A stretch of DNA of 64,000 bases from Bartonella apihabitans (GTDB taxonomy: Bacteria > Pseudomonadota > Alphaproteobacteria > Rhizobiales > Rhizobiaceae): assembly GCF_030758755.1 (NCBI RefSeq), contig NZ_CP132387.1, positions 2,409,001-2,473,000 on the forward strand, read 5' to 3'. Of this stretch, positions 26,279 to 43,796 are shown piece by piece. Positions within the stretch are counted from its first letter, which is position 1, and each line of letters begins with the position of its first letter. Position numbers and translations under genes: made by a program. The notes under the pieces were generated by a model. It was not told where the DNA came from and ran no database searches. It saw nothing but the letters and a program-made list of their open reading frames with translations.

Positions 26279-27394
26279 ATGGAAAATCAGACAGTTCAAG
26301 TAACACTGGGGAAACGTAGTTACGATATTCTGATAGGCCCCGGTCTGGTTGTCTCGGCAGGTCACGAGATTGCCCGTCGTTTTCCGGGAAGACGTGTTGT
26401 TGTTGTAACAGACGAAAATGTTGCAGCCCTGCATTTGGGAATGTTGACACAAAGTTTGCATGATGCCGGAATTGATGTGGTTCCGATAGTGGTCAAAGCC
26501 GGTGAAAAATCGAAATGTTTCGAAACACTGCAAAATGTAACAAATGATATTCTTGATAATCGTCTGGAGCGCGGCGATTTTGTTATTGCGTTCGGTGGTG
26601 GTGTTGTTGGTGATCTTGCAGGATTTGCTGCCGGAATTGTGCGCCGTGGAATGAATTTTATCCAGATACCAACGTCACTGCTGGCACAGGTTGATTCGTC
26701 GGTTGGCGGGAAAACCGGTATCGACACACGTCAGGGAAAAAATCTGATTGGTGTATTTTATCAGCCGAAACTTGTCATTGCCGATACAGAGATTCTCGAC
26801 ACTCTCCCCGAACGGGAATTCAGAGCCGGTTATGCCGAAGTTTCCAAATACGGATTGATCAATCAACCGGACTTTTTTTCGTGGCTTGAAAAAAATTGGC
26901 AAAAGATTTTCCTCGGTGGGCATGAACGGATCGAGGCGATAGCCCGCTCCTGTCGTTCAAAAGCCGATGTGGTCGCCCATGATGAACATGAGGCGGGAGA
27001 ACGTGCATTATTGAATTTGGGGCACACTTTCGGTCATGCCTTGGAAACGGTTACAAATTATGATTCGAATCGCCTTGTCCATGGAGAAGGGGTCTCTATC
27101 GGCATGGTTCTCGCGCACCAGTTTTCAAATTATCTCGGTCTTTGTCCTGCCGATGTTGCAACGCGGGTGGAAACCCATTTGAGTTCTGTCCGTCTTCCTG
27201 TGGCATTGCAGGATGTTCCGGGCGGCGTGCCGGATGCCGCAACATTGATGAAAATTATCGCTCAGGACAAGAAGGTCGAACATGGCAGTCTGACCTTTAT
27301 ATTAACACGCGGGTTGGGCCAGTCATTCATTGCCAAAAACGTACCGCCGGAAAAAGTATTGGCATTTCTTAAACAGAAACTTGGCGAAAAATGA
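26279..27394 (+). CDS. aroB: 3-dehydroquinate synthase
   Basis: A 371-residue NAD- and metal-dependent enzyme converting DAHP to 3-dehydroquinate. The NAD loop [15 protein letters not shown] is near residue 103, and [19 protein letters not shown] near residue 128 carries active-site residues. The metal-binding set includes E in EVSKYG, H in [11 protein letters not shown] and H in LVHGEGV. The ATG at 26279 is the homologous start; a longer open frame overlaps aroK and is rejected. The intron-bearing tRNA-Arg gene begins 45 bp downstream. Confidence 0.95.
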
Positions 27395-27438
27395 TTGATC
27401 GAAGCCGCTATATTGTTTAATGCTTCCACTGCGATGAA

Positions 27439-27747
27439 GTCTGCGTAGCTCAGCAGGATAGAGCACAGGATTCCTGAAACATTGAAATTGGGCGCTTCTG
27501 AAGGAAACTTTTGAAGCGGATCTGCTCAAAGTCGGGGAACGCTTATGACTTTTCAAAGTCATTGCCAATCCCGAGCCAAGCCCTCAAAAAGGGAAGGTGT
27601 AGAGACTGGACGGGCAGCACCTTACGGGTCAAGCCGATGGTGAAGGGACAGTCCAGACCACAAACGGTCATAGCGTGTTGACCGGCGGTGAAAGCCGAAG
27701 TGGTATGAATCCTGGGGTCGTGGGTTCGAATCCCACCGTAGACACCA
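27439..27747 (+). tRNA. tRNA-Arg(CCU), interrupted by a group I intron
   Basis: Exon 1 (27439-27475) gives the acceptor strand GTCTGCG, a D-arm (GCTC...GAGC), the anticodon-stem strand CAGGA and the loop bases TTCCT. Exon 2 (27708-27747) gives AATCCTG, the TpsiC arm GTGGGTTCGAATCCCAC, acceptor CGTAGAC and an encoded ACCA end. Joined, they form a complete 77-base tRNA with a seven-base anticodon loop TTCCTAA and anticodon CCU (Arg, reading AGG). The break falls after U36, directly 3' of the anticodon. The gene lies just after aroB on the same strand. Confidence 0.93.
27476..27707 (+). ncRNA. Group I (IC3-type) self-splicing intron in the tRNA anticodon loop
   Basis: The 232-base insert starts after an exon U and ends in G, as group I introns do. 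It carries the conserved core. GAGCCAAGC (27573-27581) belongs to the P4-P6 region. GGTGTAGAGACTGGACGG (27596-27613) with the partner ACAGTCC (27648-27654) forms P7 and the guanosine site, with CAGTC able to pair with GACTG. A GGG at about 27491-27493 could pair with exon CCU as P1, giving a U-G pair at the splice site. The core closely resembles the Azoarcus tRNA-Ile and Agrobacterium tRNA-Arg(CCU) introns. No homing endonuclease is encoded. Intron boundaries come from folding the tRNA by eye. Confidence 0.9.
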
Positions 27748-28590
27748 TCGTCATGATATTAGAAAATTATTGTTTAAACGAATTATCCGGAAATTGTTCC
27801 CCCTCTTTTTCCGTCATGAAATACGGAACACACAGGGGCAATCGCCTTTATTGCAGAGACTAAGATACAGTTATCTCAAGGATAAATTGTTGAAGGCCAT
27901 TTCCTTCACAGAAGGTAAAATTTTGTTCCGATTATGAGGATCATCCCGTTTGATAGAAAATCGTTCCTTTTATGAAGATTAAATGAAAAGAAGGCTTCTT
28001 CGCTTTATCTTTTAAAATATTTTCCCTCGATTACCAGCAACAAAACCTTAATTGCCATTATGCACATTAAGCCGATTGTTTGTTTTTTTAATCTACAGGA
28101 AGTTTCGAATATCGAATTTCAATATCTTTTATAGGAGTTCGTTTTCCGAAATCATGGATTGAAAGCATATAATAAGGTTTATAGGCTCTATATCAGGGAA
28201 TTTTTATCAAATTGAAACTATGATATAGATCGAAGAAGTGAAATTTTAATAATTTTCCATTCGAAAAAATGATTTCATGATAAGAGTCATAAAAAATAGA
28301 ATATTAATAAAAAATTAATAAGTATAATTTTCTTAAAATAATAAAAAATAAATTTTTGAGCGTTATTGCGTTATACGCGCGTAACGCAATGACAGAACCC
28401 TCTGGTTGATTATCATCTTGAATCCTGTATAACTGATTTTAAGGGTTATGAGCGTTTCAACGTTATTTACTGAAAATTAACGTTGTTACATGGCAAGCTA
28501 TTAACGTTGTCATTCATATGCCGCATGATGTAACCGGTTTTGTTGTTTGCGTATATTTTTGTATTGCTTCATTTCAGGCAGGGAAGACTG
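27748..28590. other. AT-rich intergenic region with a palindrome and AACGTT repeats
   Basis: No gene is recognised in these 843 bases. Close to the carboxypeptidase gene lie a 9-bp inverted repeat ATTGCGTTA/TAACGCAAT (28365-28390) and three AACGTT words (28458, 28479, 28503). The last two are inside identical 11-base words ATTAACGTTGT spaced 24 bp apart. Confidence 0.5.
28365..28390. promoter_or_regulatory. Inverted repeat upstream of the DD-carboxypeptidase gene
   Basis: Perfect 9-bp arms ATTGCGTTA and TAACGCAAT flank an 8-base GC-rich spacer. The position, about 200 bp upstream of the ATG in otherwise AT-rich DNA, suggests a regulator site or a hairpin. The binding protein is unknown. Confidence 0.4.
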
Positions 28591-41789: not shown

Positions 41790-43796
41790 CTATTCGAACT
41801 CCATGATGGTTTCGTCAACACCGAGACTTTGTCCGACTTTCACCGAAATCTCGCCAATTTTGCTTTTCTTTTCCGACCTCAGCATATTTTCCATTTTCAT
41901 CGCTTCAACGATCGCAAGAGGTTGGCCGATTTCGACTTCATCGCCTTTTTTGACAAAAATCGCGGTAATGACGCCGGGCATCGGGCATAACAACATTTTG
42001 GATGTATCAGGCGGCAGTTTTTTCGGCATGAGTGCTGCAAGGGCAGCAATATTGGGTTCCCTGACATGGGCAATTGCGTCGATACCACCGTGGCGCAATC
42101 TTATGGATGTTCCCTTGACGTCGACCTTCACAACCATGTTTGACAGATCGGAAACAGAAAATTGACAAATAGTCATGCCGGGTAGCCAATGGCTTTCAAG
42201 GGTAATTTGTTCTCCATCGGCAAATTCCAATTTGGCTCCGGCTTTATCAACCTCAATAACCAAAGGAAAAGACTGGTCGAAGATCGACACGACCCATTCA
42301 TTTTTTACAATACGCCGGTGGTTGTCGAGCGTGCCGGAAATCATGGCCGCCCGTTCTTGCAATTTCCAATTGATAAATGCGGCAATAGCTGCAAAGGAAC
42401 GCGCTTCATCCGGCGTTGGCGAGACGCCATGAAAGCCATCGGGAAATTCTTCCGCAATATAGGCGGTGGTTAATTTTCCTTCCTGAAAGCGTTTTTGCCG
42501 CATAACAGCCGAAAGAAAAGGCAAATTGTTTCCGATGCCTTCAAGTTCGAAACTATCGAGCGCTTCTTGCATGGCTTGAATTGCCATTTGGCGATTTTTT
42601 CCCCATGTAACGAGTTTCGAAATCATCGGGTCATAATAGATCGAGATTTCTCCCCCTTCATAAACGCCGCCATCATTACGGATTCTTGTTTCATCATTGT
42701 CATCGGTTGCAACGGGCGGATTATAACGGGTCAGTCTTCCGGTCGAGGGGAGGAAATTCCGATAGGGATCCTCGGCATAAAGGCGGCATTCCAACGCCCA
42801 GCCATTCCGTTTGACGTCATTTTGGGAAAGCGGCAAAGCTTCACCGTCGGCAATACGGATCATCAGTTCGACAAGGTCAAGTCCGGTAATCATTTCGGTG
42901 ACCGGATGTTCAACCTGCAAGCGGGTGTTCATTTCCAAAAAATAGAAATTCCGCTTGCCATCAACGATAAATTCTACCGTACCGGCGGAGTGATAATTGA
43001 CAGCACGGGCGAGAGCAACCGCTTGTTCTCCCATGGCTTTGCGGGTTTTTTCGTCAAGAAAAGGAGAGGGAGCTTCTTCAATCACCTTCTGGTTGCGCCG
43101 CTGGATGGAACATTCTCTTTCATTGAGATAGATAATGTCGCCATGCTTGTCGCCCATGATCTGGATTTCGATATGGCGCGGTTCACTCACAAATTTTTCG
43201 ATAAAAATACGGTCGTCTCCGAAGGATGATTTGGCTTCATTCTTCGATGCTTGAAATCCTTCTCTTGCTTCTTCATCACTCCATGCAATGCGCATGCCTT
43301 TGCCACCACCACCGGCAGAGGCTTTAATCATGACCGGATAGCCGATTTCACGCGCGATTTTTACAGCATGATCTGCATCATCAATGAGCCCCATATGTCC
43401 GGGAACAGTCGAAACACCGGCTTCCGCTGCCAATTTTTTGGAAGTAATCTTGTCCCCCATAGCGCGCATGGCATTTGCCGGTGGCCCGATCAATATAATC
43501 CCTTCCTGTTCCAGACGATCGGCAAAAACAGGATTTTCCGACAAAAAGCCATAGCCCGGATGAACTGCATCGGCATTGCTTTGTTTGACTGCAGCAATGA
43601 TTTTTTCGATGTCGAGATAAGATTGGGATGAAGGCGAGGCGCCAATATGAATAGCCTCATCGGCTTGGCGGACATGAAGAGCATTGGCATCGGCATCCGA
43701 ATAGACAGCAACCGTTTTGATGCCCATTTGTTTTGCTGTACGAATGACGCGACAAGCGATTTCGCCACGATTGGCAATCAGGATTTTTTTAATCAT
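41790..43796 (-). CDS. pccA: Propionyl-CoA carboxylase alpha subunit (biotin carboxylase plus biotin carrier)
   Basis: A 668-residue protein: N-terminal biotin carboxylase ([15 protein letters not shown] start, [17 protein letters not shown]-grasp loop near residue 160, [14 protein letters not shown] near residue 290), a linker domain, and a C-terminal biotinyl domain with the attachment lysine K634 in EAMKMEN. With PccB it makes methylmalonyl-CoA from propionyl-CoA. The ATG at 43796 has a GAGG site; it lies just after the pccB stop. The next gene, the mutase, starts 2 bp after its end. Confidence 0.95.

Follow-up and report, generated by a model that had tools for sequence, protein, structure and literature searches.

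A stretch of Bartonella apihabitans DNA at 27439-27747 had been read, in a first-pass annotation, as a tRNA-Arg(CCU) gene interrupted in its anticodon loop by a group I intron. This raised the question of whether the gene is indeed split by an intron able to remove itself, and of whether such an intron was inherited vertically or had spread. We addressed it in the window, that is, the whole 64-kb stretch of DNA that was analysed, and in the genomes of the host and of its relatives.

A split tRNA-Arg(CCU) gene missed by default searches

With introns allowed, ARAGORN returned a tRNA-Arg(cct) precursor gene on the plus strand, [27439,27747] i(38,232), with an encoded CCA and an intron after gene position 37. 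Without the intron search, it found zero tRNA in the 64-kb window. The final bases of the 5′ exon (27439-27475) are the anticodon CCU, U36 being position 27475. The intron (27476-27707) is 232 nt long and has G as its last base, and the 3′ exon (27708-27747) follows, as read from the sequence and from ARAGORN. When 27476-27707 was omitted, ARAGORN folded the rest as a cloverleaf of 77 nt, whose anticodon is CCU and whose CCA is encoded. Thus, the first-pass annotation was exact as to coordinates, strand, insert length, the site after U36 and the terminal G, and it had rightly stated that the tRNA folds once the insert is removed and that a plain tRNA scan misses the gene.

The boundary was not fixed by folding alone, since all four splice points that we tried folded as tRNA-Arg, three of them reading CCT and one CCG. 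It was set from the rule of a U before the insert and a G at its end, from the invariance of U36 and of the terminal G in 49 aligned orthologs, and from the 5′ RACE published for B. bacilliformis, as given in excerpts of that paper (PMC7717549). Inside the insert we found no ORF of ≥60 aa with an ATG, GTG or TTG start, in agreement with the earlier claim that it encodes no endonuclease; its ends are overlapped by two ORFs, at 27323-27568 (minus strand) and 27675-27863 (plus strand). The homing endonuclease of mobile group I introns was thus missing here, and the introns of 70 Bartonella loci (see below) measured 220-278 nt. The GC content of the insert was 51.3% vs 45.7% for the window. Nothing usable came from scans for repeats, promoters and terminators near the gene.

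The gene falls in an annotation gap, being unreported both by default ARAGORN and by Rfam at its cut-off. In excerpts of their paper, the tRNAscan-SE authors state that their program was not designed for group I intron detection (PMC8450103). Annotation software easily overlooks a split tRNA gene of this kind.

The insert has the core and the splice sites of a group I intron

A covariance-model search, which the first-pass annotation had proposed as a check, gave a match to RF00028 (Intron_gpI) with 43.6 bits and an E-value of 7.8e-10 in a local search, the model being aligned from its first to its last position. In the whole genome (2.74 Mb) the intron was the sole RF00028 match at E ≤0.001, with an E-value of 8.2e-10. 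The Rfam default cmscan of the window at the gathering threshold of 50 bits was empty, this threshold being one of curation and not a biological feature. Of the 70 genomes in the genus that gave a match, 60 scored above 50 bits and 10, the source genome included, scored below. Five other matches in the permissive local Rfam search were read as partial tRNA-like stretches or chance and were set aside.

We wrote a structure of 13 helices and 66 pairs, with one helix each for P1, P2, P3, P4, P5, P6, P6a and P7, two for P8 and three for P9. Its pairing was counted in 49 Arg(CCU) genes, of which 47 were distinct, taken from 16 of the 70 Bartonella loci and 33 of the 36 others; L180, L195 and L248 were left out for their different tRNA body and long branches. 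Over the 66 pairs and 47 distinct orthologs, 91.2% of the cells were paired; shuffles gave 79.9%, and none of 500 reached the observed value. Sliding the partners by 1-3 columns brought this down to 29.8-44.5%, a comparison that favours our structure since it was drawn from the first alignment row. Changes on both sides occurred in 41 of the 66 pairs, including one in P3 (UA to CG, 13 rows) and one in P7 (GC to AU, 8 rows). Many P1, P3, P4 and P7 pairs were invariant and hence uninformative for covariation, and P5, the distal P8 stem and the inner P2 pairs were poorly kept on the alignment.

All helices lie on the plus strand. P1 (27473-27492) pairs exon CCU (27473-27475) with the guide GGG (27490-27492) over 3 bp, with a U·G at the 5′ splice site; it was found in 47 of 47 distinct rows and, being invariant, allowed no covariation test. 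A putative P10 strand, AUU at 27487-27489, is by sequence the complement of AAU in the 3′ exon (27708-27710). The P2 hairpin (27493-27518), with a GAAA tetraloop at 27504-27507, was paired at 81.1% and had changes on both sides in 10 of 10 pairs. P3 (27522-27527/27612-27617) was paired at 100%, with both-side changes in two of six pairs and four invariant. P4 (27532-27536/27570-27574), invariant and 100% paired, encloses P5 (27541-27565; 73.7%, both-side changes in eight of nine pairs). P6 (27575-27577/27596-27598) and P6a (27581-27584/27590-27593) were paired at 97.9% and 94.7%, respectively. P7, which by analogy would be the guanosine-binding helix, joins GACUG (27604-27608) to CAGUC (27649-27653) and was paired at 100%; four of its five pairs were invariant, and the last was G-C in 39 and A-U in 8 of the 47 rows. 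The basal P8 stem (27618-27621/27639-27642) was paired at 100%, with both-side changes in three of four pairs over the 47 distinct rows, and the distal one (27625-27627/27634-27636) at 74.3%. In the P9 region (27658-27703), the basal helix (27658-27661/27700-27703) and the arms at 27665-27684 and 27686-27697 (GAAA loop) were paired at 99.5%, 88.5% and 99.5%, respectively.

Thus, the pairing and the RF00028 match gave the group I core, namely, P3, P4, P6, P7 and P8 with the P3/P7 pseudoknot, and the expected splice sites were there, with the 5′ U-G in all 47 distinct rows and the 3′ terminal G invariant in 49 rows. The P4-P7 core words cited in the first-pass annotation were present in the sequence, and its claim of a group I intron in tRNA-Arg(CCU) is borne out by helices P1-P9, the RF00028 match and the covariation. 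The P2 GAAA loop and the small size would be compatible with subgroup IC3, a tentative assignment.

No second tRNA-Arg(CCU) was found in the genome

The Rfam tRNA search found 45 other tRNA genes in the genome, the Arg isoacceptors among them being UCU, CCG and one reading ACA. A separate intact tRNA-Arg(CCU), the alternative raised by the first-pass annotation, was looked for and was absent from these 45 typed genes. Thus, no tRNA-Arg(CCU) besides the split gene was found, and this gene completes the tRNA set of the genome.

While typing this set, we noticed that the expected Arg(ACG) tRNA (L021:1501-1577; G000:C3:1656956) reads ACA. Its counterparts read ACG in all nine typable of 11 relatives, one of them conspecific, so that ACA is likely an assembly error, or else a striking mutation. 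Another gene, L039 (G000:C3:1378655-1378726), looks like Lys(CUU) by eye, with an anticodon stem seemingly one base short, and is called Leu(taa) by ARAGORN. The assembly thus seems to hold single-base errors at these two places, away from the locus studied here.

Vertical inheritance within Bartonella

An RF00028 match at the same site was found in 70 of 71 Bartonella genomes, and all 70 loci typed as tRNA-Arg(cct). The intron is ordinary for the genus. Directly upstream of the tRNA lies aroB (26279-27394, plus strand), whose start we placed at ATG 26279, the ORF list starting at TTG 26204. In 67 of the 70 loci, a same-strand AroB match ended 47-113 nt upstream of the tRNA; it was absent from the flanks of L051 and L065, where about 1.5 kb was searched, and of L303, where 273 nt was searched. 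Distances between AroB proteins and between introns were correlated, with r = 0.931 in the 28 of 70 Bartonella loci that had a long enough flank and a long AroB match, and r = 0.910 in 36 aroB-linked loci (0 of 2000 permutations as high). Because the intron co-diverges with the adjacent aroB, we conclude that it is vertically inherited within Bartonella as part of an aroB-tRNA locus, without spread by homing.

The one exception, G002, had 38 tRNA genes found and typed, none of them Arg(CCU), and no AroB match. Its best RF00028 match was weak (21.5 bits, E 0.00195) and was not flanked by the halves of a split tRNA. These results led us to reject an intron-less copy in G002, where the whole locus, and not just its intron, seems to be missing. 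The retention in 70 of 71 genomes means that a group I intron without endonuclease can persist as a vertically inherited component of a lineage, here one with genomes of 1.4 to 2.9 Mb; this retention bears on why such introns persist.

A patchy distribution in the wider family

Across the family, RF00028 matches were found in at least 38 of 394 genomes (8 of them Bartonella) and 22 of 109 genera, a lower bound obtained under strict filters and mixing Arg and Leu hosts. An intron-less CCU anticodon arm was found in 35 of the 394 genomes, a count that leaves aside 30 Met-type arms and one intron start picked up by this search. Twenty stretches from the arm list gave 18 intron-less tRNA-Arg(CCU), one with an intron and one without tRNA call. 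AroB was near 10 of the 36 Arg(CCU) loci from outside the genus set, including L231, which is itself from Bartonella and whose intron is identical in the tree described below to that of L310 from genus member G057. In L317 (G142), aroB is followed about 60 nt on by an intron-less tRNA-Arg(CCU), that is, an empty site in synteny that may stem either from loss or from absence before gain. In an AroB tree, a constraint that grouped the 34 rows with an intron to the exclusion of L317, L178 and L132 was not rejected (p-AU 0.277).

The patchy distribution, the empty aroB-linked site of G142 and an AroB tree that leaves room for separate gains outside the genus would favour a recent arrival of the intron in this lineage, through horizontal transfer or homing instead of descent. 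Against this stand the co-divergence of the intron with AroB, the common aroB synteny, the near-universal presence in the genus and the lack of an endonuclease ORF in the insert, and we consider a recent arrival very unlikely. The question of vertical inheritance versus spread, which the first-pass annotation had raised, is thus largely answered, by descent within Bartonella and a patchy pattern across the family.

Splicing of the precursor

By analogy with other group I introns, the precursor would fold into P1-P9 after transcription. Exogenous guanosine in P7 would attack after U36, held by the 3-bp P1 helix of CCU and GGG with its terminal U·G. The freed U36 would then attack after the terminal G (27707), so that the exons would be joined and the intron released. 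This would yield the tRNA that has AGG as its cognate codon, seemingly the sole tRNA-Arg(CCU) in the cell. We observed the gene structure, the conserved and partly covarying fold, the orthology, the synteny and the co-divergence with aroB; by analogy, we infer that splicing of the B. apihabitans copy takes place and follows the mechanism common to group I introns, and that its mature tRNA is used.

One could suppose instead that the intron, though present, does not splice and that the gene is a decaying pseudogene, AGG being wobble-read by tRNA-Arg(UCU). Such a tRNA does exist in the genome, and G002 seemingly lives without tRNA-Arg(CCU). Yet this copy has intact exons, terminal G, P1, P3, P4 and P7, all of them conserved in 47 distinct orthologs, the intron is retained in 70 of 71 genomes, and excerpts of PMC7717549 report that the copy of a congener splices in vivo. 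Decay appears very unlikely. The anticodon-loop site is also one where protein-spliced introns occur, according to excerpts of PMC4033280, and a protein endonuclease might splice the tRNA in archaeal style. This is hardly conceivable for an insert whose group I core shows covariation and whose B. bacilliformis ortholog is described, in the same excerpts of PMC7717549, as self-splicing in vitro. Self-splicing remains our reading, and the insert almost certainly cuts itself out of the precursor. We thus hold with high confidence that it is a group I intron without an endonuclease gene, that it belongs to the tRNA-Arg(CCU) family of alphaproteobacteria, and that it is predicted to be self-excising and is vertically inherited in Bartonella.

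Related introns in several tRNAs carry matching guide triplets

Scanning one genome per species with a core pattern, together with the family, Bartonella and two plasmid loci, gave at least 210 typed hosts: 106 Arg(CCU), 82 Leu(UAA), 12 Ile(CAU), 3 Thr(UGU), 2 Thr(GGU), 2 Asn(GUU) and 3 others. The scan was a sample of 120 stretches, so these counts are lower bounds, and the labels were partly set by eye. No intron-bearing tRNA was called at 11 of 121 pattern places and 2 of 30 family loci, which were left out. For many relatives ARAGORN gave odd anticodons (Ser, Phe, His and others), which a reading of the exons showed to stem from misplaced splice sites; these calls were discarded.

In a tree of 152 introns, which took in 16 of the 70 Bartonella rows and from which L170, L128, L147 and L150 were dropped for long bodies, nine host labels needed nine changes, one above the minimum. 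All 52 Arg(CCU) rows, including the 16 from Bartonella, fell in one cluster of 53 (SH-aLRT 90), the extra row being the Leu(UAA) intron L162. The source intron, which shares the insertion after U36 of tRNA-Arg(CCU), groups with the alphaproteobacterial Arg(CCU) introns; such a tree placement had been suggested in the first-pass annotation as a check. The 52 rows as one clade had a p-AU of 0.883, and this constrained tree scored better than the free one, indicating that the free search was not thorough. The tree was quick and unrooted, and 66 of its 145 inner branches were weak.

The guide triplet tracked its target, being GGG in 103 of 106 Arg introns, GAG in 71 of 82 Leu introns and GUG in all seven scorable Ile introns, five of the 12 being unscorable; the remaining 3 Arg and 11 Leu introns had an unexpected triplet. 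This series across tRNAs amounts to a natural experiment on retargeting.

Same-core introns were also seen in a seeming tRNA-Lys(CUU) of an Acidobacteriota MAG (L205, Lys label by eye) and in tRNA-Asn(GUU) of two actinobacteria (L172 and L173). A stretch of Gordonia phage Daredevil (NC_048021, L356:1347-1624), about 570 nt from a phage integrase gene, is 76% and 75% identical to the intron-bearing tRNA-Asn(GUU) of Microbacterium and Tsukamurella, respectively, intron included; it is possibly a phage attachment site or a phage-borne tRNA. At L147:3523-4019 and L202:1625-2122, a complete tRNA-Leu(UAA) gene with its intron is preceded, at a distance of about 156 nt, by a 40-nt stretch resembling a tRNA-Leu 5′ half, which suggests tRNA genes carried by, or targets of, integrated elements.

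A plasmid-borne tRNA-Leu(UAA) with a related intron

A tRNA-Leu(UAA) with a related intron was found at L002:2925-3223 (NC_004464.2, plasmid pCTX-M3) and L003:1932-2228 (LR890263.1). In both records opened, it lies about 650 bp from aac(3)-IId (aac(3)-II). In L002 it adjoins a gene annotated as an AAA family ATPase, which we take to be tmrB. Matches to this tRNA gene occurred in 1293 of 72,556 plasmid records, 1272 of them at ≥99% identity; the gene table of these records contains no RNA genes. In E. coli, 635 of 5426 genomes had a match, 589 of 670 places being on plasmids, and among the five E. coli matches listed there was no annotated feature under the copy.

The plasmid gene is 90-95% identical over its whole length to copies from Enterovirga, a Bradyrhizobiaceae MAG, a Novosphingobium MAG, Camelimonas and others, and copies at this level of identity occur in different alphaproteobacterial families, pointing to a putative alphaproteobacterial source. 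If true, a predicted self-splicing intron would have reached clinical enterobacteria unnoticed, carried along within a resistance module. In the open-licence literature we found no paper with both "group I intron" and tmrB and, by title, among the matches listed, nothing on a tRNA-Leu intron of resistance plasmids.

Tentatively, and with confidence falling a little short of an even balance, we propose that one intron family retargets via its three-base guide, that the Arg(CCU) branch arose once from a Leu(UAA)-like intron and was passed on mainly by descent, and that Leu(UAA) genes travel whole on mobile DNA, including into clinical enterobacteria as resistance-module cargo. The direction from Leu to Arg is one that we infer.

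Comparison with known systems

The intron is already known, in that a paper of 2020 described an ortholog from a congener and demonstrated its splicing (PMC7717549, excerpts). BbgpI, the group I intron of the B. bacilliformis tRNA-Arg(CCU), splices in vivo and self-splices in vitro, and it was assigned to an intron family first found in Agrobacterium. The B. bacilliformis tRNA locus is given there as c42404-42711, and the RF00028 match of genome G007 (42483-42684, minus strand), which fits B. bacilliformis by these coordinates, falls inside it. BbgpI shares with our intron the genus, the tRNA, the CCT anticodon flank and the P1-P9 stems, and there too, as far as these excerpts go, no tRNA was annotated around the intron. 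G007 also has aroB directly upstream, as in B. apihabitans. Its intron is 230 nt long vs 232 nt here, and 176 of 243 alignment columns (72.4%) are identical. By all signs the B. apihabitans intron is the ortholog of BbgpI; splicing was observed in the latter (PMC7717549, excerpts), whereas the former is known from its sequence.

In our tree, the alphaproteobacterial Arg(CCU) introns found in this analysis fall with the B. apihabitans intron. Introns of tRNA-Arg(CCU) were reportedly described in Agrobacterium tumefaciens and other alpha-purple bacteria by Reinhold-Hurek and Shub in 1992 and by Paquin et al. in 1999. They sit in the same tRNA and are named as the founding family in excerpts of PMC7717549.

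Excerpts of two papers place tRNA-Ile(CAU) introns in Azoarcus (PMC3984707) and in Acidovorax and Burkholderia (PMC8450103). They are likewise small and located in the anticodon loop, and relatives were caught by the same core pattern, their Ile(CAU) labels being set by eye since ARAGORN calls most of them Met. These relatives, which do not include the Azoarcus sequence, differ in their tRNA, in the guide GUG for CAU and in their place apart in the tree. The tRNA-Leu(UAA) introns of cyanobacteria and plastids are anticodon-loop group I introns, as here (PMC4033280, excerpts). In a tree built without cyanobacterial members, the proteobacterial Leu(UAA) introns were related to, and mostly separate from, the Arg(CCU) set. 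To these known systems, our analysis adds vertical inheritance across the genus Bartonella and a wider family that is patchy and occupies several tRNAs.
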